In this document: positions 23,964-64,000 of the stretch, piece after piece
Numbering within the stretch: position 1 is the stretch's first letter
Layout of the letters: each line of letters starts with the position of its first letter
Assembly (NCBI RefSeq): GCF_002846555.1
Contig: NZ_PJMS01000001.1
Span: forward strand, 4,030,001 to 4,094,000
Source of the DNA: Aquimarina sp. MAR_2010_214
Lineage (GTDB): Bacteria; Bacteroidota; Bacteroidia; Flavobacteriales; Flavobacteriaceae
DNA: 64,000 nt
Reading direction: 5' to 3'
Made by a program: the position numbers and the translations under genes
The notes under the pieces: model-generated
What the model was told of the DNA's origin: nothing
The model's database searches: none
What the model saw: only the letters and a program-made list of their open reading frames with translations

Positions 23964-24555
23964 TTAAAAATTATCTGCTGCTAAAGCAGCAATCTCAATG
24001 TCGTTTAGTGCTTTATTAAAAAACAATATGTCATCCATAGCACCAAAAAACCTCTCCCCGTTTCCTTTATCCATCGAACCTATAGCTATGATTTCATAAT
24101 TTGGTGTATTAGGAGTGATTGATCCATTACTTGATGATCCTTCTACATGCTGTCAATTAATATATATTTTAATTACCGATCCATTTTCTATAGTTAATGC
24201 CACATGAGTCCATATATCTTTATTAATAACACCTCCATTTGTATTGGTGTTTGTCCTCACGCCAAGTGTACTTCCAGGAGATGAAGGTAGAGATTCTTAA
24301 TAACTTGCATTTAAAATATTTTGCCCAAATGCTCCCCCTGTAATAGATAAATTATACAAAGGAGTAACGGTACTATTGTTTTTACCCAAGAGCGTACCAT
24401 AACTAGTGCCACTTCCCTTCACCCACATCGAAACTGTAAATGATAAATTTGTACCTGGAAGTATATTAGGGATTGTAAAATAACCTTGTAAAAAATTATT
24501 TCCCCTAAATTGATATCCTCCATTAGTTATTCCGTGTCTATCTAGCGATACGTTT
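23964..24555 (-). pseudogene. LamG-domain protein remnant
   Basis: Translating the minus strand gives a LamG (concanavalin-like) fold of about 197 residues, starting at DRHGITNGGYQFRGN, with IWTHVALTIENGSVIKIYIN and MDDILFFNKALNDIEIAAL near the end. Two in-frame stops interrupt it (a TAA after NASY and a TGA after IYIN). The N-terminal part is missing: similarity ends where the first cassette-array spacer begins. This is the C-terminal relic of a secreted LamG protein that was cut by the array boundary and then decayed. Confidence 0.75.
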
Positions 24556-24594
24556 CAGATTGATAATAAGCCCTATATTTTCTTATACCTTGTT
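24544..24594. repeat. Array spacer, type E, left-truncated (array boundary)
   Basis: AGCGATACGTTTCAGATTG and TTTTCTTATACCTTGTT match the inner left and right parts of the spacer at 49599. The GTT is at 24592-24594. The left AACG end is lost; the LamG relic abuts it. Confidence 0.65.
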
Positions 24595-25422
24595 GTAAAA
24601 CGTTTTTTTTCTCCACAAATACCCAAAAACTAATATGATTATTACATAAAAAGCATTGAAAATCATGGCGTGCGTAAATTCATCTTTAGTTTCTGTAATA
24701 GTTAGTAATGTACCTCCAAAATGGTTATTACTAGCATGCAATAATGCTCCTATAAAAATTGAATATCGATTAAAACCAATATAAGAGATAATAAATGAAA
24801 GAGCCATGCCTACTAGTGGATAAGTAATAAAAGCTTCTATATATGGATGATTAGGAAAATTATAACCTTGTAGCGCAATAGGCATATGCCAAATACCCCA
24901 AACCAGCCCTAGAAGGAGTATTCCCTTAAATGATCCAAAGCCATCTATCAATTTTTCTTGTAAGTAGCCTCTCCAGCCTATTTCCTCTCCCAAAATAAGA
25001 ATTACGGTGATAGGATATCCAATTATTAATAGAAGTATTGTCATTAAGGGAGAGCCTATTTTGGATAAATCTGGTACTGTTCTAATATTTAAGAATATTT
25101 GTGTACAAATAATGACTCCAAAATAGAGAATGGGAATGAGAAAAGCCAAAAAAGCACCTTTGAAAGGTGGTTTAAAAAACTTCAAGTCTTTCCAGCCACC
25201 TCCTTCTTTTTTGTTCAAGATCAAAGCTAAGATTGCTGGAATAAAAGCATAGACTAACATTATAACTGTATTAGCAATAGGTTTTGAGAAGTCAAAAATT
25301 ATTGTAGTTGTGAATCCAAAAACCCAAGAAATACCCAGAACTAATAGGATATACTTTTTTGCCTTTTTAATAGGATGAATTGAGTTCGTTGAATTAGTCT
25401 GTTCGTTATTGATTGTATTCAT
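24583..25422 (-). CDS. CPBP-family intramembrane protease
   Basis: The 279-residue protein has about eight membrane segments and the CPBP (Rce1/PF02517) motifs LGEEIGWRGYLQEKL near residue 150, GIWHMPIAL near 180 and HASNNHFGG near 235. The family comprises membrane proteases or chaperone-like proteins, some giving bacteriocin self-immunity. The stop codon lies inside the spacer end: the last codons read through the arm TTTTACAAC. It forms one unit with the AraC gene upstream (63-base gap), enclosed by the arms GTTGTAAAACG and TGTTTTACAACG. Confidence 0.82.
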   Translation of the reverse strand: MNTINNEQTNSTNSIHPIKKAKKYILLVLGISWVFGFTTTIIFDFSKPIANTVIMLVYAFIPAILALILNKKEGGGWKDLKFFKPPFKGAFLAFLIPILYFGVIICTQIFLNIRTVPDLSKIGSPLMTILLLIIGYPITVILILGEEIGWRGYLQEKLIDGFGSFKGILLLGLVWGIWHMPIALQGYNFPNHPYIEAFITYPLVGMALSFIISYIGFNRYSIFIGALLHASNNHFGGTLLTITETKDEFTHAMIFNAFYVIIILVFGYLWRKKTFYNKV

Positions 25423-25485
25423 AAGATTTTGTTTATCACAATTAAATGCTAGGCAAATGAACGGATAAACTATACCTCAATCGAC

Positions 25486-26634
25486 TCATTGGAAGCTTTG
25501 AGACCTTTTATTAAGTTGTTTTTTGAATTCTACAGGTGTTATTCCAATTTGTTGTTTGAAAATGCGATTAAAAGTGGCTTTTGAATTAAACCCTGAATCA
25601 TAAGCAATGGCAAGTAATGTTAACTTCTCAGCAGCACCTTCTTCTAATTTTTTTCTAAAATAGTTTATACGATGGGTATTGACATATTCATAAAAATTTG
25701 AGGCCAAACAAATGTTGAGAAAGTAAGATAATTTCTTATCTGATATATCTAGAATATCTGCCGTTTCTTTTAAAGAAAGGTGCTGTTTTTTGAAAATTTC
25801 TTGTTCTTTGAATACAGTTTCTAATTGAGTTTTAAGTTTTACAAACTCTTTTGATTCACAATTAAAAAAAGATGTGGTTTTGATTGTTTTTTGTTGAGAA
25901 TTTGTCTTTTTAATAAACTCTTGCTGGACTCCAGAGATTAAAAATACTTGTACTTGATTTACTCCATAATAACCGATATACCAAATGAGCAGTGCTAAAT
26001 AGAAGAGATTTGTATATACTAGCAAAGAAATAGGATAAGCAAACAGCAAAAGTCCACTAACCATGTCTATGATCAAGAATAGAACAAAGCCTCGAATCCA
26101 AATAGAAAGCCATTTTAAGTCTAATGTATTTATATTAGCATAATTGTTTTTAACCAGTCTTCTATAACGTTTCAATAGTTTATGGCTTAGAAAAAGGTAG
26201 TATCCCAAGTGTAATATACTTAGAAAAGGAATCAAGAACGAAATGATTTGAAAAAGACTTGTTTTGTTATCTAAAGACAATCCAAATACATATTGAGGTA
26301 TGCTATAGACCAAAAAAGCGGTTCCAAAAGGTAATAGACTTTGCATAAATCTTTTAAAATCAACCTCAGAAGTATAAATAGTTTTGATATATTGGAAAAT
26401 GCAAGATCCTAATGCAAAGGGAATAATAACTCCCAAAGGTGATATTACAGTAGTCAAAAAATCCCATTTTAAATATAAAGATGCATAGGTGAGAAATAAT
26501 AGTAAAAAGGCTACAAGAATACTAGCTAGAATTTTATTAGCCTTTCTTTTTTCCCAGGTCCTACTTAGTAGTAGAATTAGAAAAAGAATAGTACTAATTC
26601 CGGAGTAAGTCAAAAATATAGTGAAGTCCTTCAT
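25486..26634 (-). CDS. AraC-family regulator with N-terminal membrane domain
   Basis: The 382-residue protein has seven or eight hydrophobic segments up to residue 250 and a C-terminal AraC double helix-turn-helix (LLAIAYDSGFNSKATFNRIF, then GITPVEFKKQL). It has the same build as the gene at 2702 but is clearly not a recent copy. It is the first gene of a two-gene unit with a CPBP protease and may control it. The core arm TGTTTTACAACG begins about 40 bases upstream of its start. Confidence 0.85.
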   Translation of the reverse strand: MKDFTIFLTYSGISTILFLILLLSRTWEKRKANKILASILVAFLLLFLTYASLYLKWDFLTTVISPLGVIIPFALGSCIFQYIKTIYTSEVDFKRFMQSLLPFGTAFLVYSIPQYVFGLSLDNKTSLFQIISFLIPFLSILHLGYYLFLSHKLLKRYRRLVKNNYANINTLDLKWLSIWIRGFVLFLIIDMVSGLLLFAYPISLLVYTNLFYLALLIWYIGYYGVNQVQVFLISGVQQEFIKKTNSQQKTIKTTSFFNCESKEFVKLKTQLETVFKEQEIFKKQHLSLKETADILDISDKKLSYFLNICLASNFYEYVNTHRINYFRKKLEEGAAEKLTLLAIAYDSGFNSKATFNRIFKQQIGITPVEFKKQLNKRSQSFQ

Positions 26635-26676
26635 TTTTTATTGCTTCATAGTGCTATTTTAGTATTTCCTTATTCA

Positions 26677-27156: not shown

Positions 27157-27189
27157 TTTTTGTAATAGTTTATTTTAATTAAGCACAAC

Positions 27190-29065: not shown

Positions 29066-29297
29066 AACGCTAAATATATGGCAAGTAGAGCTGAAAACAA
29101 GCGATTACTTTTGGTTTAGCCACAAGCCATTTTTTTACATTTTATTTTAATTTTTCTCTTTAATACTCACCGAAGGACTACGAATACCAAAATATAAAAC
29201 AAAAACAAAGTCGTAAATCAAAAGATTTGGTGGCTTTTCAAATAGACAATGACCTTTCGTTTAAACACTAATTGCCCTATTTGTTGTATATAGTGTT
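29066..29297. repeat. Array spacer (long, type unassigned)
   Basis: AACG at 29066-29069 and GTT at 29295-29297. Inverted ends: AACGCTAAATATATG at left and GTATATAGTGTTAGC at right. The interior is AT-rich. Confidence 0.65.
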
Positions 29298-30415: not shown

Positions 30416-30543
30416 AACGGTTTGTGTCTGATTAGTTGCCTGTTTTTGGCTGTAAAGTTAATTATATTACTCTAATTGTATGCTTGCGAGAGATTTGTCC
30501 GAAGGAACAAATCCACCAGCAATTAACTATACACGTCTTTGTT
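30416..30543. repeat. Array spacer, type F
   Basis: AACG at 30416-30419, GTT at 30541-30543. Left arm GTGTCTGATTAGTTGCCTG and right arm AGCAATTAACTATACACG are inverted. The core facing the decarboxylase gene is GTTACCTGC. Confidence 0.7.
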
Positions 30544-32022: not shown

Positions 32023-32109
32023 AACGCCTCGGTTATGGTTAGTACGGGATTAAAATACAGTTAATTTCCGATTAAGCACTTATTAGCTATGTTTTATAGG
32101 GCACGTGTT
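32023..32109. repeat. Array spacer, type B (short form)
   Basis: AACG at 32023-32026, GTT at 32107-32109. Contains GGTTATGGTTAGTACGGG and TTAGCTATGTTTTATAGGG. Confidence 0.75.
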
Positions 32110-34238: not shown

Positions 34239-34361
34239 AACGTTTTGTGTATGATTAGTTATGTTGTTTTTGCCAAATGTAACTAAAAAAACTTGGTGTT
34301 CATTTTCAACAAATACTTTCCAAAATAGCCTAAACTAAGTTATTAATTATAAATGGTGTTA
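34239..34361. repeat. Array spacer, type F
   Basis: AACG at 34239-34242, GTT at 34359-34361. TTGTGTATGATTAGTTATG at left faces TTATTAATTATAAATGG at right. Confidence 0.65.
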
Positions 34362-36883: not shown

Positions 36884-36943
36884 AACGTTTCTTGTATGAT
36901 GTGTTTGCATCCTGAAGGGTACATATGCATTACACAAATTGTT
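36884..36943. repeat. Array spacer, compact type (60 bp)
   Basis: AACG at 36884-36887, GTT at 36941-36943. CTTGTATGATGTGTTTGCAT is opposed by ATGCATTACACAAATTG. Size is in the range of short canonical attC sites. Confidence 0.65.
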
Positions 36944-37843: not shown

Positions 37844-37866
37844 TTGGTAATCTTTATTCGCAGAAT

Positions 37867-39564: not shown

Positions 39565-39727
39565 AACGTTATAAGTATGTGTCGTGGCAAAGCAAAATGT
39601 TACCGAGCTTTCCGACATTTCTGCGCATTGATTGCTATTTTTACTATTTAGCAAGCATTGCGCTTTACCAAAAATACAACAACCATTCGATTCATCACTT
39701 AACTGCTATGAACACATATATCATGTT
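39565..39727. repeat. Array spacer, type A
   Basis: AACG at 39565-39568, GTT at 39725-39727. Markers: GTATGTGTCGTGGC, CTGCGCATTGATTGC, GCTATGAACACATATAT. Confidence 0.8.
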
Positions 39728-41007: not shown

Positions 41008-41062
41008 AACGTCTCGTTAAGAAACGTTGTAGCTTTTGCTACTATGAATTATAAACCTTGTT
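41008..41062. repeat. Array spacer, compact type (55 bp)
   Basis: AACG at 41008-41011, GTT at 41060-41062. GTTGTAGCTTTTGCTAC forms the tip of a hairpin. Confidence 0.65.
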
Positions 41063-42314: not shown

Positions 42315-42529
42315 AATGTATCGGCTATGATTAGTACGGGACTTAAAAGTAGTGAACTTTCGATTAAGCACTTAGTCAAAACTTTTTCTTTTGTTTTATT
42401 TTTTTCTTTTTTAAAGCCAAATTTATTTCATATTTCCCTAACGGGTAATCAAAAAGATTTGGCGGACTCTATAAAAATACAATAAACTTTGGGTTAAGCA
42501 GGAAAACTGTATTAACTATAGTCATTGTT
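42315..42529. repeat. Array spacer, type B (long form)
   Basis: AATG at 42315-42318, GTT at 42527-42529. GGCTATGATTAGTACGGG at left is opposed by GTATTAACTATAGTC at right. Confidence 0.8.
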
Positions 42530-43964: not shown

Positions 43965-44079
43965 AAAGTTTTTGCATATGATTTCGTTGCGTGTTTCAGC
44001 AACTAAATTAGCAAATACAAACCAAATAGAAAATCCGTGAGGGTTTTCGTAAGTAGGCTATAACTAGCAATGAATTATA
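43965..44079. repeat. Array spacer, type C, left part (split by IS)
   Basis: GTTGCGTGTTTCAGCAACTA, AATAGAAAATCCGTGAGG and TTCGTAAGTAGGC are type C markers; the sequence stops at GAATTATA where the IS begins. The right part is 45522-45530. Confidence 0.8.
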
Positions 44080-44137
44080 GCAACCATGTAAAAGCAGTAT
44101 CCTAAGTTTATATAATGAATCAAACTACTAATTTATT

Positions 44138-45193
44138 ATGAAAACAAAGGATACTACAGACTCAAAGTTATTTATTGGTATTGACGTACACAAGAGAAGT
44201 TGGAAAATTCATACAGCTACCGACCTTTTTGATGGCTCAGATTTGACGATTCCTCCCAATGCTTATGCATTACAGAAATATGTAGACAAACATTTTACAG
44301 GATATCAGGTATATTGTTGTTATGAATCTGGTTGTTGTGGTTTTAGTCATCATCGCTTATTTGAATCTTTTGGTTGGTGTTCTATGGTGGTTAACCCGGC
44401 TGATGTTCACCGGCCAGCCAAGGCACAATTTCAGAAGAGCGATAAGATCGATGCTCGATTATTATGTAGGGAGTTAAAAGATGGTCGTTTACGAGGGATT
44501 CATGTTCCAGATATTGAGCGGGAGTACTTACGATGTCTATTTCGTAGGCGTAATGATCTAGTTAAAGAACTGCGTAAGATCAAAACCCAAATCAAGATGC
44601 AACTATTGTATTTAGGAGTTGAGATTCCCAAAGAGTTAGATCAACCCCATTGGTCTCATAAATTTAGAAATTGGCTAAAGAATTTATCCTTTGATTATAC
44701 CACGATGGATTATTGTTTGCAGACCCGATTAGCATCTTTTGATTTTGTAGACAAGCAACAACGAGACGTGAGTGTTAAACTACGCGCTTATTGTCGTAAA
44801 CATTACAAGAAGGATTATTATTTACTAAGGAGTGTTCCAGGAGTAGGTCCTATTGTAGCATGTGGGATCATTTGTGAGTTAGGCGATTTACGAAGGTTTA
44901 AGAATTTTAAGCAGTTGGCTAGTTATGTTGGTTTGATTCCATCTGTTCACCAGAGTGGTGATAGTTTGACTACTTCTGGCCTTACTCCCAGAGCAAACAG
45001 AATTATGAGAAGTTACCTGGTAGAGGCTACTTGGGTTGCTTTACGGTTTGATCCTGTGATGCAAGCATATTACCGATCTCATAAGGGAAAAGATGTGAAA
45101 AGGATTTTAGTAAAGGTGGCCAGAAAATTACTGAGCCGTATTCATGCTATTATCAGAACAGAAACCCCCTATCAGATAGGAGTGGTAAGTTGA
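44138..45193 (+). CDS. IS110-family transposase (DEDD)
   Basis: The 351-residue protein has the RuvC-like DEDD domain (FIGIDVHKRSWKIHT, KSDKIDARLLCRELKDG) and the C-terminal transposase-20 domain (LRSVPGVGPIVACGIICELG, YVGLIPSVHQSGDS) with a Ser-containing LTTSGLTPRANRIMRSYL region. Such recombinases use a structured guide RNA from the element's non-coding end. The long non-coding stretch here is downstream of the gene, as in the IS1111 subgroup. Confidence 0.95.
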   Translation: MKTKDTTDSKLFIGIDVHKRSWKIHTATDLFDGSDLTIPPNAYALQKYVDKHFTGYQVYCCYESGCCGFSHHRLFESFGWCSMVVNPADVHRPAKAQFQKSDKIDARLLCRELKDGRLRGIHVPDIEREYLRCLFRRRNDLVKELRKIKTQIKMQLLYLGVEIPKELDQPHWSHKFRNWLKNLSFDYTTMDYCLQTRLASFDFVDKQQRDVSVKLRAYCRKHYKKDYYLLRSVPGVGPIVACGIICELGDLRRFKNFKQLASYVGLIPSVHQSGDSLTTSGLTPRANRIMRSYLVEATWVALRFDPVMQAYYRSHKGKDVKRILVKVARKLLSRIHAIIRTETPYQIGVVS

Positions 45194-45521
45194 AAAAAAT
45201 AAAAAATATAAGCCTAAAAACTCGACAATACTTTTGGCACAAAAAAGGACAACTAAACAACGTGGGTGAAGCTTTAAACCGTTATCACATTTTATAGCAA
45301 GTTGCCTTGTTTGCCAATCATAATCATAGTGATGCTGGTGGATGATTTTGTATCATACCACATATAGGATGCGGAGTTATAATGGGCTATTGTTGAAGTA
45401 TTGACAACGCTTTAATGGCGTTGCCAACAATCCAACAATCTAAAATCATTAGAATGAGATAATTAAAATAATAAAATATTGTATTTTTAACCTAAGACTT
45501 GGGAAAGGGCTTTACATAGGA
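45194..45521 (+). ncRNA. Non-coding end of IS1111-like element, candidate bridge/seek RNA
   Basis: About 328 bases without a frame lie after the transposase gene, conserved exactly in the second copy. ACAACGCTTTAATGGCGTTG forms a hairpin near 45400-45425. In IS1111-type elements this position encodes the guide RNA; the exact ends cannot be read. Confidence 0.45.
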
Positions 45522-45530
45522 CACGGTGTT
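45522..45530. repeat. Array spacer, type C, right end (split by IS)
   Basis: CACGGTGTT completes the spacer begun at 43965; GTT at 45528-45530 is followed by the arm GTAGCCAG of the next unit. Confidence 0.7.
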
Positions 45531-45538
45531 GTAGCCAG

Positions 45539-46936
45539 TTATTTTTTTGGTATATTGTTAATCTTCTCAATCATTTTTTTAGCATTTTCATTAGTGTTAT
45601 CAAGTTCAAAGGACTTTTTATAATTAACTAAAGCTAAATCATATTGTTTATTTGCATAGTAAGCTTCTCCTAAACTATTATATAAGCTTGCATTATCAGG
45701 AAATTCAGAAACAGCTAATTTGAATATTTCAATACTTTGATTATTTTTTTTTGAAGTTAATAAATCATAACCAAGTTCTTTTAATTCGTTAGAGTTTTCA
45801 AAGTCGTAGATCTCTAAACTACTTTCTTTTAAGTCATAATAAGATTTAATGCCCAAATCAATATTTTCATGGCATTTACTACGAATTTGTCTATAGATAG
45901 ATCTTTTAGGCAAACTAAAAGGCTTTCCTTTCATTATTTTATGCATAGATTGAATTATTTCAAAGCCTTTACTTTTATTGTTTGACATTAAAATAATATT
46001 AAGGTCATCCTTGAATTCACTCATAAAAGCTGCTTCAAATTGCCAAGATTGACCACCATGGAGATGTAATGCAAATGAATCATGAGATGAACCTAGACTA
46101 GATTCTTTATTTTTAAAATACTGATTCTGTAGGAGTAGTTCTAGTGACGATCTAGAAATTAATTTGTTGTTGTGTAGAGCAGTAATCCATTTATTCAGAT
46201 CATCGATTGATACCCATAACCAATCTTTACTAGTAGAAACTTCTTCGCAATTTATTTTATGTACGTCAAAGCACCTAACACTATTTAGATAATCAAAATC
46301 AGGGTCAAATACGACATTTTCCATTTTTAAAGGGAAAATAATATTTTCCATCACAAATTCTTGATATGTTTTTTTCGTAACACTTTCAATAATCCTTTTC
46401 TGAAGAAAAATACTATTGTTATTGTAGTTATAATTTGTGCCTGGTTCAAATAGTAAATTGGGTAGAAGTTGTAAGTCTTCCAAAATGTCTTTCTCATCTT
46501 CCACATTGTCATAATCAATTTGTGGAATCCCACTAACGTAGTTTAAAAGGTGCTTGATGGTGACTTTTTCAGACCAAGCAGGCAAACCTAAACCAAATTG
46601 AGAGAGTTTATCGTCAAATTGTAATTTCCCTATTTCTATCAACATGACAATAGAAACGGCATTAAATTCTTTTGCAATTGAACCTATATTGAAAATAGAT
46701 TTTTTTGTCAGCTTGGTTTGTTCTGAACCATCTGTGTATCCAAATGATTTTTGATACACAAGGGAATTATTTCTTGTAACTAATACATTACCATTAAAAA
46801 TTCCTCTTTCATGGCTAATCTTCATAAGAGAATCAATGGTTTTATAGTATTTCAAAAAAGGTTGCGTTTCTTGTTTTTGTGCGTTGCTATATCCAAAAAT
46901 AGATAAAGAAAGGATAACAATAATAAATTTGTTCAT
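45539..46936 (-). CDS. Serine hydrolase (beta-lactamase class C-like) with TPR tail, second copy
   Basis: The start at 46936 gives a signal peptide ending near SNAQK. The 465-residue protein has the PF00144 domain with SIAKEFNA (SxxK) near residue 93 and YNYNNNS (YxN-like) near 175, followed by C-terminal TPR repeats (NASLYNSLGEAYYANKQYDL). It is a diverged paralogue of 38056. Arms GTTGTAGCCAG and TTGGCTACAACG enclose it and have the same core as the paralogue's arms. Confidence 0.87.
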   Translation of the reverse strand: MNKFIIVILSLSIFGYSNAQKQETQPFLKYYKTIDSLMKISHERGIFNGNVLVTRNNSLVYQKSFGYTDGSEQTKLTKKSIFNIGSIAKEFNAVSIVMLIEIGKLQFDDKLSQFGLGLPAWSEKVTIKHLLNYVSGIPQIDYDNVEDEKDILEDLQLLPNLLFEPGTNYNYNNNSIFLQKRIIESVTKKTYQEFVMENIIFPLKMENVVFDPDFDYLNSVRCFDVHKINCEEVSTSKDWLWVSIDDLNKWITALHNNKLISRSSLELLLQNQYFKNKESSLGSSHDSFALHLHGGQSWQFEAAFMSEFKDDLNIILMSNNKSKGFEIIQSMHKIMKGKPFSLPKRSIYRQIRSKCHENIDLGIKSYYDLKESSLEIYDFENSNELKELGYDLLTSKKNNQSIEIFKLAVSEFPDNASLYNSLGEAYYANKQYDLALVNYKKSFELDNTNENAKKMIEKINNIPKK

Positions 46937-47007
46937 GTTTGTATATAGTTTTATATACAAAAGACAAGATGGTTTTAAAATTGTTACAGTTTTGTTTAAT
47001 TGGCTAC

Positions 47008-47172
47008 AACGGTAAATATATGAATTGGTGCAAGTGAAAATATGCTTGAACCAATCAATCTATCTACGCATTTTTATTTCTTAGTTAATTTATAAAAATC
47101 TAGCGCCACCACAAAAAGGAAATGAACTTTCGATTAAGCGCTAAACTTTGCTCTGATTTCATATATCTTGTT
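47008..47172. repeat. Array spacer, type D
   Basis: AACG at 47008-47011, GTT at 47170-47172. Markers: AAATATATGAATTGG, CTACGCATTTTTATTTC, TAGCGCCACCAC, CTTTGCTCTGATTTC. Confidence 0.8.
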
Positions 47173-47737: not shown

Positions 47738-47843
47738 AATTTGTTTTTTTATAATTTGACGGTTGCAAATTCCAATAACCTATTGAGTCTAATTATATTT
47801 TTCTTCTGAATCGTCGTATATTAATATTGGATTGTTATTTAAT

Positions 47844-48241: not shown

Positions 48242-48247
48242 TAGTGT

Positions 48248-49598: not shown

Positions 49599-49788
49599 AA
49601 CGTCTCGTATAAGAAATGTAGGGCAGGTAATAAGCGATACGTTTCGGATTGGTACTAAGCCAAACCTAAATATTTTGCTTTTATCTTTTTTCTTATAAAC
49701 GCCAAATTTTATAGTTGGCGACTTGGCAAGTAAACACAGATCTTGCGATTAAGCACAAAAGCCTTATGTTTTCTTATACATTGGTGTT
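49599..49788. repeat. Array spacer, type E (full length)
   Basis: AACG at 49599-49602, GTT at 49786-49788. TCGTATAAGAAATGTAGGGC is opposed by CTTATGTTTTCTTATAC. The 86 bases that follow, up to the GNAT stop, hold no gene. Confidence 0.8.
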
Positions 49789-50372: not shown

Positions 50373-50536
50373 AACGTTAAATATATGAATTGGAGCAAGG
50401 CAAGTATACCTGAACCAATTGACTTATCTGTGCATTTTTATTTCTTGTTTAATTTATAAAAATTTAGCGCCTTTGCAAAAAGGAAATGACCTTTTGATCT
50501 AACACTAAACCTTGCTCTGATTTCATATATGATGTT
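50373..50536. repeat. Array spacer, type D
   Basis: AACG at 50373-50376, GTT at 50534-50536. Same markers as at 47008 (ATATATGAATTGGAGCAAGG, TTAGCGCC, TTGCTCTGATTTC). Confidence 0.85.
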
Positions 50537-51100: not shown

Positions 51101-51287
51101 AACGGTCTTGTATAAGATTAGTTGCGTGTTTTACGTACTAACTTTTCGGATTGACACAGAGCTAAATTTTTATTTGGTTTTAATTTTTCTTGTTTTAAAA
51201 GTCGAATTTAAAAATTTGGCGGTCTTTGTAAATTGGCACAAATCTTTTTTTTTTAGCACTAATTAGCTATGTTTTATACACCGTGTT
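51101..51287. repeat. Array spacer, type F
   Basis: AACG at 51101-51104, GTT at 51285-51287. CTTGTATAAGATTAGTTGCG at left faces CTAATTAGCTATGTTTTATA at right. Confidence 0.75.
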
Positions 51288-52172: not shown

Positions 52173-52336
52173 AACGCTTAATATTTGTGTCGTAACAGGG
52201 AAAAATGTTACGGTATCTTTCGACTTTTCTGCGCATTGATTGCTGTTTTTCACTTTTAGCAAGCATTGCGCCATCCAAAAATACAACAACCATTTGATCT
52301 ATCACAAAAACCTGTTATGATCACATATATGTTGTT
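52173..52336. repeat. Array spacer, type A
   Basis: AACG at 52173-52176, GTT at 52334-52336. Markers TTGTGTCGTAACAGGG, TCTGCGCATTGATTGC and GTTATGATCACATATAT. Confidence 0.8.
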
Positions 52337-52353
52337 GTAACACGTTTTCTTCT

Positions 52354-52935
52354 TCACATCCCATCTTCTCTTTCAGAAATCCACTCACTATATTTAGCTT
52401 TTAATCGGTCTCTTTTTTCTTGAGAATCAATTATTATATCCATCCCTCCATCATAAGACGCAACAATACAGTTTTCTTTAGGACAGATAAACATCGCTCG
52501 TAATTCATCATCCGCGATATTTTTCAACAGTTTATTTTGAGAATTCATCGTCCATATATCTGGCTTGAAATAAACATCATAGAAAAAACCCTCTTTATAT
52601 TCCTCAGGATAAATTTTATGAAGTTCAATTGTTCTACATTTTTCAAATTCTCCGTAATCAGATAATTCGGTTGAGATTTCGTTAGTCAACTCTATTTCGT
52701 ATTGTCCTGACGTGATTATTATTTCTGTATTTTCTCCAACTAACTCCGTAATCAGTTTATTTTGTCGATCCAGAATTATTTGGTATTCATCTTCAGATTC
52801 CGCATATCGTTTCGATTCGGGTAAACTATGAATCCGTAACCATCTATTTGGATAAACGCTTTTTAATTCGTGTCCGATTGGATTGGATTCAGGATAATTT
52901 GAGTCCCAATATTTATTAAATTGTTCGCGATTCAT
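52354..52935 (-). CDS. DUF3885-domain protein
   Basis: The 193-residue protein has the DUF3885 C-terminal signature IVASYDGGMDIIIDSQEKRD followed by KAKYSEWISEREDGM, and an N-terminal FNKYWDSNYPESNPIGHELK segment. The function is unknown; such proteins are frequent in immunity-like gene sets. Arms GTTGTAACACG and TGTGTTACAACG are perfectly complementary. Confidence 0.8.
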   Translation of the reverse strand: MNREQFNKYWDSNYPESNPIGHELKSVYPNRWLRIHSLPESKRYAESEDEYQIILDRQNKLITELVGENTEIIITSGQYEIELTNEISTELSDYGEFEKCRTIELHKIYPEEYKEGFFYDVYFKPDIWTMNSQNKLLKNIADDELRAMFICPKENCIVASYDGGMDIIIDSQEKRDRLKAKYSEWISEREDGM

Positions 52936-52948
52936 CAGAATGTGTTAC

Positions 52949-53012
52949 AACGGGAGTCTGTGTATTAACTTAAATCTGATCCCTGAGAATCACATATTTA
53001 TAATTTTTCATA
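52949..53012. repeat. Array core site with unassigned spacer
   Basis: AACG at 52949-52952; GGGAGTCTGTG at left weakly pairs with CATAGACACCTACCC. The sequence from 53013 to 53118 shows no known spacer family. Confidence 0.4.
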
Positions 53013-53854: not shown

Positions 53855-53977
53855 AACGTTGTTGTATATGATACGTTGCATGGTTTAGAACGTAATTTAG
53901 TAAATAAAAACCGAATAGAAAATCCTCACGGATTTTCGTAAGTAGGCAAGTTATAGCAATGGATTATATATAGTGTT
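53855..53977. repeat. Array spacer, type C (intact)
   Basis: AACG at 53855-53858, GTT at 53975-53977. ACCGAATAGAAAATCC, GATTTTCGTAAGTAGGC and GGATTATATATAGTG; this is the uninterrupted form of the IS1111-like target. Confidence 0.8.
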
Positions 53978-54550: not shown

Positions 54551-54595
54551 AACGGTTTGAATAAACAGTCGTTTTAATGCTGTTTATTTTTTGTT
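54551..54595. repeat. Array spacer, shortest complete hairpin (45 bp)
   Basis: AACG at 54551-54554, GTT at 54593-54595. GAATAAACAG pairs with CTGTTTATTT around an 11-base loop, extended outward by CACACAACG and GTTGTGCG. Confidence 0.65.
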
Positions 54596-55785: not shown

Positions 55786-55796
55786 CTCTATGTGAT

Positions 55797-57108
55797 GTTC
55801 GTTAAGATACATAGTTTACACAAGTTAAAGATTAGGTGTTTACACTAAGTTAGTTTCTAATCTTGTTGCTTGTTGTTTCTTTCTTAGGTTTCTTTGATCA
55901 AAGAAACCTAAAAATACATTTCTATAATAAACTTTCCAAATACCATTGCCTAACTCTTGTATACCTACATATTTCCCTTTTAATGCGGCAGTTAAATATA
56001 CCCAATAATAAGACTTCCATCTAATAGCTCCACTCTTGGTTACTTTAAGTACTTTAGGTTGGTGTCGTAATCAAAATTAGATATTTTTTCGGGGAATGGT
56101 CTACAGGAAAAGTCGTGTATATCAGCAGGTGTTTTCATTTCTAAAGCTTCATGTGGTCTGATAGTATTATACTCTTTTACGAAGTGATTTAAGCGCCGTT
56201 GTTGTGCTTTTAAATCGTAAGCTGAAGGTTTAGCACAAGCTGCTTTTAAATCACGATGCATTCGTTCATGTCTTCCATTTTGTTCTGGATGAGCAGGATC
56301 AGAAAATACAGGTGTGATTCCTAGTTCAATAAACCAATAAGATAATTGTGTATAGCGTTGAATAGCTCTTACAGATCCAAAAGGACTTCCATTGTCTGTG
56401 TGTATTTGTTTAGGGATTCCATATGTTCTAAAAACCTTTGTAAACTCAGCTTTGGCTGCTTTTAGCGTTTCTTTATAATGACCTTTAGCAGTGAATAGAA
56501 ATCGACTTTTAGAGTCCGCAATGGTTAGTGGATGACAATAGATTTTATTACCCATTAAAAACTTTCCTTTATAATCAGCACTCCATACTTCATTACAGGA
56601 TTTTGGATCAAAAATGGGGAATACAGGTTTTACTCTTCGCATTCGTTTTTGAGGAGATACCAAACCATTTTTTCGAAGAATATTATGCACAGTAACCACA
56701 GAAGGGATTTGTTGTTCAGTAAACTCTTTAAACAATAATATTCTGATTTTTTTAGCTCCCCAAAGCTTGTGCTTTTCTTTTAATTTGATAATACTTTTAA
56801 CGATATTTTCAGAGGTTGCATTAGGATGTTTACCTGGTACTCTGGATTGTTCTTTTAAGCCTTCATAGCCTTGATTTTCGAATCGCTGAATCAATTTGTA
56901 GGCCGTTGGTCTGGAGATTCCAAAGCTTTTAGATAATTCTGTGATGGTATATTTTCCTGTTCGCCATTCACAGATAAATTCAATTTTCTGTTCCATAGTT
57001 GTTGTGGTTTTCCAAGGCATGATAATTTGATTTTCCTCTCAAATTATGCCTTAAAAAGTGTAAACTATGTCCCTTTAACTTTGTAAACGATGTGCCTTTA
57101 ACGTACCC
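55797..57108 (-). mobile_element. IS481-type insertion sequence
   Basis: About 1.31 kb with imperfect inverted ends: GTTCGTTAAGATACATAG at left and, reversed, GGTACGTTAAAGGCACAT at right, with a second CATAGTTTACAC element inside each end. No clear target duplication is visible. It is inserted between a cassette gene and its upstream core site. Confidence 0.8.
56040..57020 (-). pseudogene. IS481-family transposase, C-terminus frameshifted
   Basis: The 326 residues contain a helix-turn-helix (YTITELSKSFGISRPTAYKL) and a DDE integrase core: SADYKGKFLMGN, HTDNGSPFGS and HPEQNGRHERMHRDLK. After NFDYDTN the frame shifts by one base relative to the fragment at 47917; the lost tail (VTKSGAIRWKSYYWVY onward) is still readable downstream in another frame to about 55890. 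All catalytic residues are kept, so activity may be reduced rather than lost. Confidence 0.8.
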
Positions 57109-57118
57109 AATTAATGAC

Positions 57119-57282
57119 AACGCCAAATATATGAATCGGAGCAAGGCAAGTAAGCCAGAACCAATCGATTTATCTGCGCATTTTTATTTCTTATTCAATT
57201 TATAAAAATTTAGCGCCACTGCAAAAAGGAAATGACCTTTCGATTTAGCACTAAACTTTGCTCTGATTTCATATATGATGTT
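57119..57282. repeat. Array spacer, type D
   Basis: AACG at 57119-57122, GTT at 57280-57282. AAATATATGAATCGGAGC, CTGCGCATTTTTATTTC and TTGCTCTGATTTCATATATG. Confidence 0.85.
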
Positions 57283-58003: not shown

Positions 58004-58165
58004 AACGCTTGGTTTATGAATCGGAGCAAGGCAAGTATACTTGAACCAATTGATCTATCTGCGCATTTTTATTTCTTATTCAATTTATAAAAATTTAGCG
58101 CTATTGCAAAAATGAAATTACCTTTCGATTTAGCCTTAAACAGCTATGATCACATATATAGTGTT
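58004..58165. repeat. Array spacer, chimera of types D and A
   Basis: AACG at 58004-58007, GTT at 58163-58165. The left and middle parts are type D (TTATGAATCGGAGCAAGG, TTTAGCGC), but the right end is type A (ACAGCTATGATCACATATAT). Confidence 0.8.
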
Positions 58166-58711: not shown

Positions 58712-60058
58712 TTAAACGGGTTGTATTTTACTCATTCTAGCGTCTAAATTAGCTATTTGCTTTTGAAGTTCCAGAACTTTTCTCTTTCTTTTTTGGTCAA
58801 GATACTCATAAATTGTTGGAGGAGTATATTGTATATTCTTGTATAGCATATTCCAAAGTATTGTAGCTATTTTTCTTGCGGTAGCAGAAACAGCAACGAC
58901 TCTACCTTTTCTGTATGCTATTCTATTGAAGAAGTTTGAAAGATGAGTGTCTTTTAAATTTCCAATTGCATTTCCAGCTTGTCTTAGTGCTATTTTAAGT
59001 CTATTACTGCCTTTGGGAGTTCTACTGCTAAGAATACGTCCGCCAGAGATTTTATTGTTGGGAGCTAGTCTTAACCAAGATGTAAAATGTTGTGCATTTT
59101 GGAATTTTAGTATTCCTTTTTCACCAAGTTCGCTCATTAATGTAAGTACAGTCCCATGACTAAATCCTTCTATGGCATATAAATCTACACCATCAAAATA
59201 TTGATATGAAATAAGGTTTAAATCTATGTTTTTAGGCGTGTTTTTATTTATTCTTTTATGTACTTTCTTATCAATATAAAGTGATTTTTTTATTTCATTT
59301 TGATTCACAAATTGCTCTAAAATATTTTTTATTTCAATATCACATTCTATTATTAATTTTTGAGTGTCTTGGTATTTTTGTAACTCTTGTTTTAAAACAA
59401 ATAAGTAATCTTGACGATTATTACTTTGTAAAGCTTTAGCAATTTCTTCTTCTGATTTTTTACAATTCCCATGTCTTAATTTAGCAAGTTCTTTTCCACT
59501 TGTTTCTCCATTACAAATTTTATTAATAATTCGTAAACCTGTTAAACCAACAATGTCCTTTACCACAATGTCTAATCTTAAATTCATTAGTCTCATGTTT
59601 TGAGCCATTCTTTTGGATGCTTTTGAAGTAGTCTGAATTAAATTACCGCGGTGTCTAACCAAAGTTCTTAGGTGTTCTGTTTCTAAATCAGGTAAAAAAC
59701 TGCCACTTAAAAGCCCTAAAGTATGTAGTCTTTGAATCCACATACAATCCAAAACATCTGTTTTTTTTCCTTTGATATTTTTGGTGAATTTTCCATTTGT
59801 TAGAATCACCTCAATAGATGAATTCTGTAATTCTGTATATAAATTTTGCCAATACGAACCTGTAGATTCCATAGCTACAGTTTTTACATCATTTTCAAGT
59901 AACCACTTGAGTAATTCTTTGATGTCCTGAGCATAAACTCCAAACTCTTTTACATCAGAGTGTTCTTGATTAATTGCTACAAAATGTGAGCGACTTCCAA
60001 TATCAATTCCAGCTGCATTAGGATTAATGATATCCATTTTTAAATTTCTTTTTGCCAT
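58712..60058 (-). CDS. IS110-family transposase (DEDD), IS110 subgroup
   Basis: From the ATG at 60058 the protein has 448 residues. The DEDD domain shows AAGIDIGSRSHFVAI, VAMESTGSYWQNLY and GKKTDVLDCMWIQRL; the C-terminal transposase-20 part shows IEGFSHGTVLTLMSELGEKG and SWLRLAPNNKISGGRILSSR. It is unrelated in detail to the transposases at 44138 and 61236. Confidence 0.92.
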   Translation of the reverse strand: MAKRNLKMDIINPNAAGIDIGSRSHFVAINQEHSDVKEFGVYAQDIKELLKWLLENDVKTVAMESTGSYWQNLYTELQNSSIEVILTNGKFTKNIKGKKTDVLDCMWIQRLHTLGLLSGSFLPDLETEHLRTLVRHRGNLIQTTSKASKRMAQNMRLMNLRLDIVVKDIVGLTGLRIINKICNGETSGKELAKLRHGNCKKSEEEIAKALQSNNRQDYLFVLKQELQKYQDTQKLIIECDIEIKNILEQFVNQNEIKKSLYIDKKVHKRINKNTPKNIDLNLISYQYFDGVDLYAIEGFSHGTVLTLMSELGEKGILKFQNAQHFTSWLRLAPNNKISGGRILSSRTPKGSNRLKIALRQAGNAIGNLKDTHLSNFFNRIAYRKGRVVAVSATARKIATILWNMLYKNIQYTPPTIYEYLDQKRKRKVLELQKQIANLDARMSKIQPV

Positions 60059-60300
60059 TCTTTTTGATTTAAATGAATAAAAATGCCCAAAGAGAATGTA
60101 TATTGTAATCAAGAAAATATTCTGAACGAGATATCCATAAAGGATTCATCAATGAGATTATCACAAGCCTTTGATACTGGTATATCAAAGGCTTTTTACA
60201 TTCCAACCAGAATTGCGCTCGAGCTTTGAAGGCATCAATTAAAAATCGGTCTAACAATGAACCCTAATAAGATACAAAACGTTACCTTAAAGAGATTATT
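60059..60300 (-). ncRNA. Non-coding end of the IS110 element, candidate bridge RNA
   Basis: About 240 bases upstream of the transposase gene, where IS110-subgroup elements encode their guide RNA. It contains the hairpin AAGCCTTTGATA/TATCAAAGGCTT followed by TTT on the plus strand (60165-60197). Confidence 0.4.
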
Positions 60301-60328: not shown

Positions 60329-60514
60329 AACGTTTCAGCTATGGTTAGTACGGGAAAAAATACAACTGAATTTCCGATTAAGCACTTAGCCAAAACTTTT
60401 TATTTTGTTTTATCTTTTTCGTTTAAAGCCAAATCAAAAGATTTGGCGGACTTCATAAAAATACACTAAACTTTAGGTTAAGCACCTAAACCCGTATTAA
60501 TTATAGCTATTGTT
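60329..60514. repeat. Array spacer, type B (long form)
   Basis: AACG at 60329-60332, GTT at 60512-60514. CAGCTATGGTTAGTACGGG is opposed by CCGTATTAATTATAGC. Confidence 0.85.
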
Positions 60515-61046: not shown

Positions 61047-61063
61047 TTTTTGTAATGTTTTAC

Positions 61064-61177
61064 AACGGTCTTGTGTATGATTAGTGGCGTGTTTAAGCAC
61101 CTAATTTAGCAAATAAAAACTGAATAGAAAATCCGTGAGGATTTTCGTAAGTAGGCTAGAACTAGCCATTAATTATA
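61064..61177. repeat. Array spacer, type C, left part (split by IS)
   Basis: AACG at 61064-61067; AATAGAAAATCCGTGAGG and TTCGTAAGTAGGC follow, stopping at TAATTATA exactly as at 44079. Confidence 0.8.
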
Positions 61178-61235
61178 GCAACCATGTAAAAGCAGTATCC
61201 TAAGTTTATATAATGAATCAAACTACTAATTTATT

Positions 61236-62291
61236 ATGAAAACAAAGGATACTACAGACTCAAAGTTATTTATTGGTATTGACGTACACAAGAGAAGTTG
61301 GAAAATTCATACAGCTACCGACCTTTTTGATGGCTCAGATTTGACGATTCCTCCCAATGCTTATGCATTACAGAAATATGTAGACAAACATTTTACAGGA
61401 TATCAGGTATATTGTTGTTATGAATCTGGTTGTTGTGGTTTTAGTCATCATCGCTTATTTGAATCTTTTGGTTGGTGTTCTATGGTGGTTAACCCGGCTG
61501 ATGTTCACCGGCCAGCCAAGGCACAATTTCAGAAGAGCGATAAGATCGATGCTCGATTATTATGTAGGGAGTTAAAAGATGGTCGTTTACGAGGGATTCA
61601 TGTTCCAGATATTGAGCGGGAGTACTTACGATGTCTATTTCGTAGGCGTAATGATCTAGTTAAAGAACTGCGTAAGATCAAAACCCAAATCAAGATGCAA
61701 CTATTGTATTTAGGAGTTGAGATTCCCAAAGAGTTAGATCAACCCCATTGGTCTCATAAATTTAGAAATTGGCTAAAGAATTTATCCTTTGATTATACCA
61801 CGATGGATTATTGTTTGCAGACCCGATTAGCATCTTTTGATTTTGTAGACAAGCAACAACGAGACGTGAGTGTTAAACTACGCGCTTATTGTCGTAAACA
61901 TTACAAGAAGGATTATTATTTACTAAGGAGTGTTCCAGGAGTAGGTCCTATTGTAGCATGTGGGATCATTTGTGAGTTAGGCGATTTACGAAGGTTTAAG
62001 AATTTTAAGCAGTTGGCTAGTTATGTTGGTTTGATTCCATCTGTTCACCAGAGTGGTGATAGTTTGACTACTTCTGGCCTTACTCCCAGAGCAAACAGAA
62101 TTATGAGAAGTTACCTGGTAGAGGCTACTTGGGTTGCTTTACGGTTTGATCCTGTGATGCAAGCATATTACCGATCTCATAAGGGAAAAGATGTGAAAAG
62201 GATTTTAGTAAAGGTGGCCAGAAAATTACTGAGCCGTATTCATGCTATTATCAGAACAGAAACCCCCTATCAGATAGGAGTGGTAAGTTGA
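61236..62291 (+). CDS. IS110-family transposase (DEDD), identical copy
   Basis: The 351-residue protein is identical to the one at 44138, with the same FIGIDVHKRSWKIHT and SVPGVGPIVACGIICELG motifs. Identity at the DNA level over the whole element implies recent transposition. Confidence 0.95.
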   Translation: MKTKDTTDSKLFIGIDVHKRSWKIHTATDLFDGSDLTIPPNAYALQKYVDKHFTGYQVYCCYESGCCGFSHHRLFESFGWCSMVVNPADVHRPAKAQFQKSDKIDARLLCRELKDGRLRGIHVPDIEREYLRCLFRRRNDLVKELRKIKTQIKMQLLYLGVEIPKELDQPHWSHKFRNWLKNLSFDYTTMDYCLQTRLASFDFVDKQQRDVSVKLRAYCRKHYKKDYYLLRSVPGVGPIVACGIICELGDLRRFKNFKQLASYVGLIPSVHQSGDSLTTSGLTPRANRIMRSYLVEATWVALRFDPVMQAYYRSHKGKDVKRILVKVARKLLSRIHAIIRTETPYQIGVVS

Positions 62292-62619
62292 AAAAAATAA
62301 AAAATATAAGCCTAAAAACTCGACAATACTTTTGGCACAAAAAAGGACAACTAAACAACGTGGGTGAAGCTTTAAACCGTTATCACATTTTATAGCAAGT
62401 TGCCTTGTTTGCCAATCATAATCATAGTGATGCTGGTGGATGATTTTGTATCATACCACATATAGGATGCGGAGTTATAATGGGCTATTGTTGAAGTATT
62501 GACAACGCTTTAATGGCGTTGCCAACAATCCAACAATCTAAAATCATTAGAATGAGATAATTAAAATAATAAAATATTGTATTTTTAACCTAAGACTTGG
62601 GAAAGGGCTTTACATAGGA
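62292..62619 (+). ncRNA. Non-coding end of IS1111-like copy 2, candidate bridge/seek RNA
   Basis: Same sequence and position as 45194-45521, downstream of the transposase gene. Confidence 0.45.
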
Positions 62620-62628
62620 CACGTTGTT
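62620..62628. repeat. Array spacer, type C, right end (split by IS)
   Basis: CACGTTGTT, with GTT at 62626-62628, completes the spacer begun at 61064 and is followed by the arm CTACGCAG. Confidence 0.7.
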
Positions 62629-63285
62629 CTACGCAGTTTTTATTCTTTTCAAATTGTTCATCTGTTGTTCAAATCCTTGAAATTTATTATTTATGTCTTG
62701 TGTATGATTACCAGAAGTCCATTCTTTATACAATCCTAAATAATTATTCATTTCGTTCGTTCCGTTTATTTGGTCAGTCCATTTTAGAGCCAACATTGCT
62801 CCACTTTGGTCATAATGCAAGTCTTTTCTTGTCAAATAGTATTCAAGATATTTTTTCAGATATTCAATTCCGTTTTGAGTATTAAATTTCGCTAATGCTA
62901 AACAGTACCCATTTCCTGCGTAACAAACTTGACTTTTTAAAAGGTGAATTCCAATAATATCCTCAACAGTTTTATATTCCATTATTGAAGCAAAATACGC
63001 TCCAACAATTCTAGTTCTCCAATTAAAATCTCCAAGTAGATTTTTAACAACTTCTATATTCAGTTCCGCTCTTATTGGTTCAAAGTTCCGAATGAATTCA
63101 TCTGCATTATTTATTCCGAACATATAAAATGGAACACACCACTTTTTTATAAATTCAGGTTCAATTTTATTTTCGTTCGTATAATGTTCCAACTCTGCAA
63201 ATGGACTTGCGTGTCGGATTGTTGCACCAGCAGAATGTAATTCAATTTGTTTCTTTGTTTTTTCGTCCATTGTTGGTTTGTTCAA
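62629..63285 (-). CDS. DUF6000-like hypothetical protein
   Basis: The 218-residue helical protein has LLGDFNWRTRIVGAYFASIM near residue 84 and LEYYLTRKDLHYDQSGAMLA near 150, which I associate with DUF6000 proteins of unknown function. Arms GTTCTACGCAGTTT and AAATTGCGTAGAACG are perfectly complementary over nine bases. Confidence 0.65.
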   Translation of the reverse strand: MNKPTMDEKTKKQIELHSAGATIRHASPFAELEHYTNENKIEPEFIKKWCVPFYMFGINNADEFIRNFEPIRAELNIEVVKNLLGDFNWRTRIVGAYFASIMEYKTVEDIIGIHLLKSQVCYAGNGYCLALAKFNTQNGIEYLKKYLEYYLTRKDLHYDQSGAMLALKWTDQINGTNEMNNYLGLYKEWTSGNHTQDINNKFQGFEQQMNNLKRIKTA

Positions 63286-63294
63286 ATTGCGTAG

Positions 63295-63420
63295 AACGTT
63301 TGTGTATATGGTTTGTTGCGTGTTTCAAGCAACTAATTTAGTAAATAATTACCGACCAAGAAAGTCCGCGAGGACTTTCGCAAGTAGGCGAGAAGCCAGC
63401 AATAAATTATATACGGTGTT
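63295..63420. repeat. Array spacer, type C (intact)
   Basis: AACG at 63295-63298, GTT at 63418-63420. GTTGCGTGTTTCAAGCAACT, AAAGTCCGCGAGGACTTTCG and AATTATATACGG; the central hairpin has compensatory changes relative to the other type C copies. Confidence 0.85.
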
Positions 63421-63439
63421 GCCAACAGTGCTTTTGTTT

Positions 63440-64000
63440 TCAGGCAATTCCTCCAGAAAAGTATTCCGTTATTTTCCACTTTCCATTTACTTTTTTGATT
63501 TCAATATTATTGTCCCAAGCACAACCATCTCCACAAATAAAGTCAAAATGTAAATAACCTTTCGTGAAATTTCTATTAAAAACTATTCTTGAAATGAATA
63601 AATAACCAAATTCATTTTTTTTAGTATCAAAGTTTTCTAATGCTTCAATCTTTTCTTTTTTTATTAATTCAATATTTAAATTTTCATTCTTAAAGGAATA
63701 ATTCAAATTCCGAGTTTTAATTTTTCCATTTTTTAAGTCGATGAAAATTTTTTTCTCAAATTCATATTGTTTTAAATCTTCCTCAAATTTATTTTTGTTT
63801 CTTTCAATTCTTTCTTTTGAATAATCAATTCCATTCGCACCAATGTCATATCCAGTTGGTTTTATTGTCCAAGCTGTTGTTGTGTCTAATTTTGATAAGA
63901 TATAAAGTTTAAGTTTTTTATTTCCATATTCATTCAGTTCTTTCATTTCCTCAAATTGTGTCATTTCAAGAATTATATCATTAATGGCTTCGTTTTCCAT
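63440..64000 (-). CDS. Hypothetical protein (possibly partial at the window edge)
   Basis: At least 186 residues; an ATG coincides with the last three bases of the window, so the true start may lie beyond. Charged and helical at first, ending in a beta-rich KKVNGKWKITEYFSGGIA segment as in NTF2-like or immunity-type proteins. Not recognised. Its 3' core is GTTGCCAACAG. Confidence 0.5.
   Translation of the reverse strand: MENEAINDIILEMTQFEEMKELNEYGNKKLKLYILSKLDTTTAWTIKPTGYDIGANGIDYSKERIERNKNKFEEDLKQYEFEKKIFIDLKNGKIKTRNLNYSFKNENLNIELIKKEKIEALENFDTKKNEFGYLFISRIVFNRNFTKGYLHFDFICGDGCAWDNNIEIKKVNGKWKITEYFSGGIA

Follow-up and report, generated by a model that had tools for sequence, protein, structure and literature searches.

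The DNA analyzed here, a stretch of 64,000 nucleotides (nt) from the 5.98-Mb, one-contig genome of Aquimarina sp. MAR_2010_214 (G000:C1:4,030,001-4,094,000, hereafter the window), carries a long array of leftward genes separated by palindromic spacers. The array leads up to the gene of a tyrosine recombinase just outside the window, and together they very probably form a platform for capturing mobile gene cassettes with this recombinase, integron-like in its working. The features that point to this reading are the recombinase, a junction resembling an integron attI site, complementarity between the two ends of each cassette, asymmetric attC-like hairpins, consistent strandedness, and cassette turnover starting at a GTT. 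By the definition tested, the array is not an integron, because the additional domain of the integron integrase IntI and the GTTRRRY core both fail.

The array occupies positions 24544..64000 on the minus strand, starting at about 24.59 kb and running to the right window edge and beyond, which bears out the leftward units and recurring palindromic spacers reported in a first-pass annotation. Boundaries read by hand gave 30 cassette starts and 29 ends, with both available for 27 cassettes; one end was unreadable in C9, C17, C19, C22, and C32, and both were in C31, where spacers are degenerate or lost. Past the edge come the cassette cut by it, one more cassette (758 amino acids [aa], MORN repeats), and then, on the same strand, an intact recombinase gene of 375 codons at G000:C1 4,096,547-4,097,674 (window-equivalent 66,547-67,674). 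The annotation had predicted an integrase upstream beyond 64 kb, and the recombinase indeed lies 2.5 kb past the window. A second copy, 98% identical, is found at 4,913,394-4,914,521, and it too is followed by such sites. Mixed gene orientation had been named as a sign against a cassette array; the cassette genes are co-oriented, and the clear opposite-strand genes are two IS110 transposases.

Read in gene orientation, each unit opens with GTT-N7-A and closes with N7'-AAC, the reverse complement of its own start. In the 27 hand-read cassettes (positions 4 to 9), own start and end matched at 121 of 162 positions (mean, 4.48/6), versus 2.31/6 when an end was compared with the start of the following cassette (n = 26) and 1.95 over the remaining pairs (n = 843); none of 200,000 permutations reached the observed match. 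Position 11 is a conserved mismatch, with an own match in 3 of 27 cassettes. Because the hand ends had been read by eye, we repeated the test with boundaries set by R1, a covariance model of one site family whose training set includes six window sites. This test used 67 of 186 matches, leaving out weaker ones and those outside the fetched DNA; 56 sites could be placed, 11 were dropped for want of AAC or GTT near the expected place, and 29 adjacent pairs resulted. Across these 29 cassettes the own end scored 5.66/7 and the downstream neighbor 2.10/7 (permutation, 0 of 100,000). Such complementarity would be expected if cassettes moved as circles cut at GTT and took their start along, as in integrons, and from it we infer excision of circular cassettes and their insertion by the recombinase. 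The rule also provides a simple, strand-specific way of finding such cassettes.

The complementary ends differ from those first described. The annotation gave them as CTACAAC/GTTGTAG or similar; instead, the 7-mer next to the core varies from cassette to cassette, with 91 distinct 7-mers among 116 perfect-match cassettes from the directional search given below. The GTTRRRY core of the classical R box appears in 4 of 30 window starts and 9 of the 116 perfect-match starts, with AAC/GTT retained. The annotation's integron-like layout with noncanonical sites is thereby upheld, by own-end complementarity and by this core. Its statement that spacers always run AACG...GTT stands in part: the AAC/GTT frame is common, but 4 of 30 starts read CTT or ATT, and several spacers are degenerate or lost.

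A short attI-like palindrome directly follows the recombinase stop codon in close relatives (AATAGCAATTGCTATT here, with its GTT at window-equivalent 66506-66504; ATATGTGTACCAGTACACATAT-like in others), and in many of these it is followed by ...ATT|GTT and then the first cassette. The site thus lies next to the integrase gene, though 3' of it. The two copies in this genome share 94% identity over 1,625 bp and diverge right after GTT (one more base is shared); the two copies in Aquimarina longa likewise diverge after GTT. A pair of closely related species of the genus, G006 and G025, places the junction at the same point. Their upstream flank is 88% identical over 3.8 kb and 80% over 5.0 kb, and recombinase plus attI are 89.5% identical, ending at GTT. 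Over the approximately 57 kb after GTT, 103 BLAST matches were found, of which 102 are at most 215 bp (site size) and one spans 553 bp at 72%; essentially no cassette appears to be shared. Turnover between relatives, a check proposed in the annotation, is therefore seen as essentially complete replacement beginning at GTT, and it suggests that cassettes are inserted at attI. Similar cassettes recur across arrays, in the second array of this genome, G031, and L031, and also in G016 (twice) and G025.

The sites themselves have features expected of a folded strand. The 92 sites compared, taken from the window array and related ones, fall into size classes of about 55, 118, 157, and 182 nt, in keeping with the few recurring spacer families noted at first. 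The arms pair more often than expected from the product of column frequencies, first at offset +2 for positions 3 to 12 (at position 11, 64% observed versus 30% expected) and then at offset +1; these offsets correspond to an unpaired spacer of 3 nt on the left and 5 nt on the right, plus a single additional base on the left arm. A second set of sites pairs at offset +4. The consensus of the 157-nt class is AACAatATATATGTG-A-TCATAGCAG on the left and, reverse complemented, AACGTTTAATATATGTG-TCGTAGCAG on the right. With DNA parameters, folding z-scores had a median of -2.16, with 74 of 92 sites below -1 and 4 above 0. An unpaired central spacer and an extrahelical base, as in attC, are thus present in the predicted structure. 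Integron attC sites have an asymmetric unpaired spacer and a bulge on the R'' side, which the features here parallel. A first automatic arm-pairing search had been dropped, as the stems that it picked were chance pairings. An Rfam scan of the window returned no match.

The recombinase combines the Pfam Phage_integrase domain with a SAM-like core-binding domain. It scores 220.1 against NCBIfam NF040815 (cutoff, 220) and 187 bits against the IntI model TIGR02249 (cutoff, 265). Compared with IntI4 (2a3v), chain residues 193 to 247 have no counterpart. In an alignment-based count, the residues between two catalytic landmarks number 59 to 66 in 39 rows of relatives (a few without a detected array), 59 to 60 in 6 plasmid rows, and 101 in 12 of 12 IntI, so that the IntI-specific insert is found in 0 of 45 rows of relatives versus 12 of 12 IntI. 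All 57 rows, among them those of the 12 IntI, have the catalytic residues R, H, R, H, and Y (the count excludes the catalytic lysine). In a quick tree, the 12 IntI form one clade with support of 100 on a long branch. A fold search with the recombinase model gave only tyrosine recombinases among the matches listed, IntI4 2a3v being among the best, and by sequence its closest relatives of known structure are archaeal Xer proteins. We make no claim for the HARP-like look of the N-terminal domain, which had one weak Pfam match among 12 members (E = 0.002).

A divergent gene for a 122-aa protein adjoins the recombinase gene in 48 of the 53 loci with at least 54% identity and in 3 of the 29 with lower identity (3 loci with too little upstream DNA were dropped). 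The protein may be a regulator or directionality factor; its structure model is poor (pTM 0.44). It has a CxxC...CxxxC pattern, and window-equivalent 66547-68135 (L009 6548-8136) spans recombinase and gene.

To follow the signature elsewhere, we used a strand-specific search for CGTT-N7-A ... [AC]-N7'-AACA with at least 6 of 7 matches. A first search for chains of complementary ends had been rejected, being symmetric under reverse complement and too noisy; the context bases gave direction. Over 45 regions (772 kb) that lie behind related recombinases or contain related sites, it returned 178 forward cassettes (116 perfect) versus 20 reverse (4 perfect), with forward exceeding reverse in 34 of 45. 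Control DNA (185 kb) gave 10 forward versus 5 reverse, and 0 versus 1 perfect. Of 18 regions behind recombinase relatives, forward cassettes outnumbered reverse ones in 14, no cassette was found in 3, and the last had a lone reverse cassette. Sites resembling those of the window lay behind the recombinase, on the same strand as its gene, in 14 of 14 loci with matches (L010, at the second copy, and 13 of 21 further loci); the remaining 8 of these 21 gave no match. Recombinase relatives (E ≤ 1e-50) occur in 143 of 295 genomes of the class Bacteroidia and, at E ≤ 1e-80, in 40 of 91 genus- and order-level relatives, own genome included in both. Some relatives lack an array, and therefore the 143 genomes count recombinase relatives rather than proven arrays. 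True IntI, scoring above the cutoff, occurs in 1 of these 295 class genomes and in 84 of 296 drawn from the phylum. Contigs tend to break downstream of the recombinase, which repeats would predict: among all 43 rows of relatives outside this genome, a contig end lay within 10 kb downstream in 21 of 26 minus-strand rows, and one lay within 10 kb upstream in 1 of 17 plus-strand rows.

Within the Aquimarina genome, R1 finds 42 sites, of which 9 belong to the window array, 2 lie near the second recombinase, and 31 are elsewhere. Neighboring sites within 15 kb share a strand in 26 of 27 cases, and eight stretches around recombinase-less sites held 16 forward cassettes versus 1 reverse (two of the eight had none). 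The annotation had named spacers scattered genome-wide as evidence against a cassette system. Sites outside the arrays do exist, but as same-strand clusters with the same cassette signature, and we read them as recombinase-less satellite clusters comparable to CALINs, which are clusters of attC sites without an integrase, as IntegronFinder 2.0 describes them in the part consulted (PMC9024848).

These observations suggest how the system would work. A Xer/XerA-type tyrosine recombinase, whose gene in close relatives adjoins the divergent gene for the 122-aa, zinc-finger-like protein, would act at the short palindromic attI immediately beyond the 3' end of its gene, where mobile circular cassettes, usually of one or two genes plus one hairpin site, would enter. 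Excision would occur by recombination at the GTT boundary, the GTT-N7 start moving with its own cassette. The site between cassettes would be an attC-like hairpin with outer R boxes N7'-AAC and GTT-N7, then inner arms; its unpaired parts would be the asymmetric spacer (3 nt left and 5 nt right in the commonest set) and one extra left-arm base. Since N7 is complementary within one cassette, a closed R box would therefore form best in the free circle. The circles, the cut position within GTT, and read-through expression of cassettes from the recombinase side are expected features, as is recombination of a folded single strand through the hairpin, which we hold to be probable, with less assurance than the platform itself.

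The rival closest to this last step has cassettes moved as ordinary double-stranded DNA in a Xer-type synapse, the hairpin serving as a terminator or strand marker. Archaeal Xer proteins, the nearest relatives of known structure, work on double strands, and the attI palindrome resembles a double-strand core site; own R-box complementarity, the 3/5 spacer, and the one-arm bulge suit a folded strand and would be superfluous in a double-strand site, which leaves this rival unlikely but not negligible. It is less likely still that we are looking at a classical integron with a divergent IntI. The cassette, attI, and attC-like hairpin logic is the same, the NCBIfam family is named "site-specific tyrosine recombinase/integron integrase," and both the partial TIGR02249 match and the fold search touch IntI. 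That match stays under its cutoff, however, this reading already fails on the missing additional domain (a landmark gap of 59 to 66 residues in 45 rows, versus 101 in 12 IntI), IntI forms its well-supported separate clade, attI lies 3' of the gene, and few starts carry GTTRRRY.

Two explanations would do without a capture platform of this kind, and neither is easily reconciled with the data. The spacers might be a dispersed repeat of the MITE (miniature inverted-repeat transposable element) or REP (repetitive extragenic palindromic) kind, making the array a hot spot without cassette mobility. The 31 of 42 model matches outside both recombinase arrays favor this and weigh against our own reading, yet the left end of a site matches the start of the preceding gene unit and not its own right neighbor, and the same-strand clusters, the link to recombinase and attI, and the replacement of cassettes from GTT on make a dispersed repeat very improbable. 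Slightly harder still to credit are Xer-dif (pdif) modules moved by housekeeping XerC/XerD. The recombinase is Xer-type, and Acinetobacter, in which pdif modules occur, accounts for 50 of 248 records of distant plasmid matches; a dedicated recombinase nonetheless stands at the head of the arrays, and the many distinct 7-mers leave no fixed dif-like junction sequence.

Several further observations count against a capture platform with a folded-strand mechanism, or blunt the evidence for it. Own ends match poorly in C5 (0/6), C16 (1/6), and C14, C24, and C30 (2/6 each); in 3 of 24 hand-read cassettes the neighbor's end matches better than the own end; and 9 of 29 model-set cassettes score 5/7 or less, some pairs perhaps spanning an unseen site of another family. 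In a set of 33 regions, G365, G243, G254, G163, and G188 contained no forward cassette, and G365 contained 4 reverse ones. Turnover was compared between species, with one genome per species, and the stretch from the shared flank to the recombinase is 4.9 kb longer in G006 than in G025. The base of the tree does not order IntI relative to these recombinases, the two outgroup rows being long branches, and the structure model of the recombinase is modest (pTM 0.51). The evidence consists of sequences, from which recombination, circles, and cutting are deduced.

Individual sites and cassettes of the window array, all on the minus strand, are located as follows from the recombinase side. Site S2 (AAC...GTT; 63295..63420) is of the approximately 118-nt class, and cassette C3, with a DUF6000 gene (62626..63297), runs from start GTTCTACGC to end GCGTAGAAC. 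Site S3 (61064..62628) is split by an insertion sequence (IS) of the IS110 family, with its transposase at 61236-62291 on the plus strand. S4 (60329..60514) and S5 (58004..58165) represent the approximately 182-nt and 157-nt classes. Cassette C6 (57280..58006; start GTTAGCAAC, end GTTGCTAAC) is followed by S6 (57119..57282), which is the genome's best model match and also a training sequence of that model. The short hairpin S7 (54551..54595) and S8 (53855..53977) precede cassette C10, encoding a DUF3885 protein (52334..52951; start GTTGTAACAC, end GTGTTACAAC), after which come S10 (52173..52336), S11 (51101..51287), S12 (50373..50536), S13 (49599..49788), and S14 (47008..47172). Cassette C15, for a beta-lactamase-fold/TPR protein, lies at 45528..47010 (start GTTGTAGCCA, end TGGCTACAAC); S15 (43966..45530) is again split by an IS110-family element (transposase 44138-45193, plus strand), and its right end reads CTT, while that of S17 (42315..42529) reads ATT rather than GTT. 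S18 (41008..41062) and S22 (36884..36943) are of the approximately 55-nt class. Further sites are S20 (39565..39727), S25 (34239..34360), S27 (32023..32109), S28 (30416..30543), and S29 (29066..29297). The last cassette, C33 (24592..26687; start GTTGTAAAAC, end GTTTTACAAC), holds an AraC-type regulator and a CAAX-protease-like gene and was counted as one two-gene cassette on the strength of its matching ends. Beyond the left end of the array, 23833-24583 has no listed open reading frame of 60 aa and looks like decayed coding DNA.

The cargo is mixed. A Pfam scan covering part of the window genes (48248-49309 and 54607-55812, for example, were left out) found CAAX-protease-like proteins (two), GNAT (three), methyltransferase, transglutaminase, pyridoxal phosphate-dependent decarboxylase, esterase, and beta-lactamase-fold hydrolases (two). 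AraC, cNMP-binding, TPR, SUFU, HD, DUF3781, DUF2314, DUF3885, DUF6000, pentapeptide, and other proteins are also encoded, together with a Xre/MbcA-type antitoxin domain just below the cutoff and several proteins without a family. SUFU, DUF3885, DUF2314, and DUF6000 are domains that we take to be immunity-like. PADLOC found no match among 8 proteins. After the second recombinase copy, L010 14745-19018 contains, as read by eye, a C5 DNA methyltransferase-like gene with an integrase-arm-like N terminus and a neighboring gene that may be its restriction partner.

The IS110-family element that splits S3 and S15 is present in four full copies in the genome, and 4 of 4 lie inside an attC-like site: the two in window spacers (43,966-45,530 and 61,064-62,628), one in the second array (G000:C1:4922042-4923507), and one at 2012712-2014176, at the end of a satellite cassette. 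The element seems to target attC-like sites. All copies sit at apparently the same place, next to the left AAC. Integron attC sites are targeted by the IS1111-attC elements of the IS110/IS1111 family, and the element here can be set beside that group by its insertion position within sites. A further IS110-type transposase (466 aa; 58712-60112) and an IS481-like element (56040-57020) also interrupt the array, with an IS481-like remnant at about 47840-48242 and solo ends near 37858, 43258, 47835, and 55788; these elements seem to have removed several site halves.

Outside these arrays, the genome has tyrosine recombinase genes arranged as tandem pairs (about 310 plus 310 aa) near 1.87, 3.13, 5.14-5.17, and 5.77 Mb of G000:C1, several recurring at intervals of roughly 6 to 8 kb.

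A search of plasmids linked the window array to arrays of gut Bacteroidales. Related recombinases, 36 to 49% identical to that of the window, were found in Bacteroides ovatus (L173), Parabacteroides distasonis (L174), and Phocaeicola massiliensis (L177). Behind the recombinase of L173 and L174 lie short, co-oriented genes whose annotations include SMI1/KNR4, Imm26, PoNi-like, and Tdi1-type proteins; L177 is unannotated. This resembles rAID (recombinase-associated acquired interbacterial defense), described in the part of the source consulted as a predicted tyrosine recombinase upstream of co-oriented short orphan immunity genes with conserved intergenic motifs (PMC12247911). We classed L173 and L174 as rAID-like from their organism, architecture, and annotation rather than from comparison with the reference recombinase BF9343_RS08045. 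The gut units open with CATT-N7, a pattern picked after inspecting the gut gene gaps, and close with N7'-AAC: own ends matched at 101 of 102 positions in 17 hand-read cassettes (two of 19 were dropped, with an end too short or missing), versus 2.67/6 for the neighbor, and 0 of 100,000 permutations reached the observed value. Scanning for CATT gave forward/reverse counts of 11/4 in L173, 9/1 in L174, and 7/1 in L177, against 2/2, 3/2, and 0/0 in the 9 kb upstream; at least three forward matches (two in L173, one in L174) lay off gene gaps. A scan for CGTT starts found none in L173 or L177 and one 6/7 match in L174. Among other plasmid relatives, it gave 4/0 in L175, 3/0 in L178, and no signature in L176 (Persicobacter).

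The two possibilities in the annotation, a relative of the gut arrays or a separate system, thus merge. The window array shares with rAID a related recombinase upstream of co-oriented genes, many of them short, and conserved intergenic motifs in the sense of the common end rule, own-end complementarity, which holds for the window, L173, L174, and L177 (the published motifs were not part of this comparison). It differs in starting with CGTT rather than CATT, in its longer sites, and in mixed cargo in place of an array of short orphan immunity genes, which make up most of the gut cargo where annotated. Judged from their sequences, rAID-type arrays and the window array are one system, of which the window represents a mixed-cargo branch. 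Ross et al. (2019) reportedly defined rAID and may say more on it. Three relatives of the gut recombinases (P0155, P0164, and P0219) have 546 aa and contain a PF15571 domain as well; a cassette gene may have become fused to the recombinase at attI. A shorter recombinase relative (272 aa) on the Flagellimonas plasmid NZ_CP092416.1 (L179 7017-8792) lies by an annotated erm(F), with a Tn3 transposase nearby.

More broadly, we favor the view, with reasonable though limited confidence, that this is a second integron system throughout Bacteroidia, distinct in recombinase family, attI position, and site code, that recombines folded single strands without the IntI insert and has rAID as a specialized branch. 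In the literature searched, most subscription papers lying outside its scope, the parts consulted (including PMC9024848, PMC8618304, PMC2426708, PMC8138268, PMC12247911, and PMC8102008) describe neither the system nor an integron reading of rAID. As far as those parts go, IntegronFinder 2.0 names one complete integron in Bacteroidetes proper, in Salinibacter (PMC9024848), and a survey of tyrosine recombinases has an integron-like subgroup whose CAT insertion is "not fully conserved" (PMC8138268). The IntI and attC searches of IntegronFinder may overlook the system. Should our view hold, environmental and gut bacteria of a large class possess a gene-capture platform of their own, the way in which rAID arrays acquire immunity genes becomes testable, and so does the view that integron-type recombination requires the IntI insert.

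Set beside classical integrons, the likeness extends to a tyrosine recombinase, an attI, one-site cassettes inserted at GTT, a hairpin with an asymmetric spacer and a bulge, recombinase-less satellite clusters like CALINs, and an IS sitting in the sites. Classical integron cassettes, too, have complementary R boxes within one cassette. The differences are that the recombinase here lacks the IntI additional domain; that attI lies 3' of a co-oriented recombinase gene; that the core is GTT-R-N6, not GTTRRRY; that close relatives have the divergent 122-aa partner; and that relatives of this recombinase are common in a class of bacteria where true IntI is all but absent from the genomes sampled.

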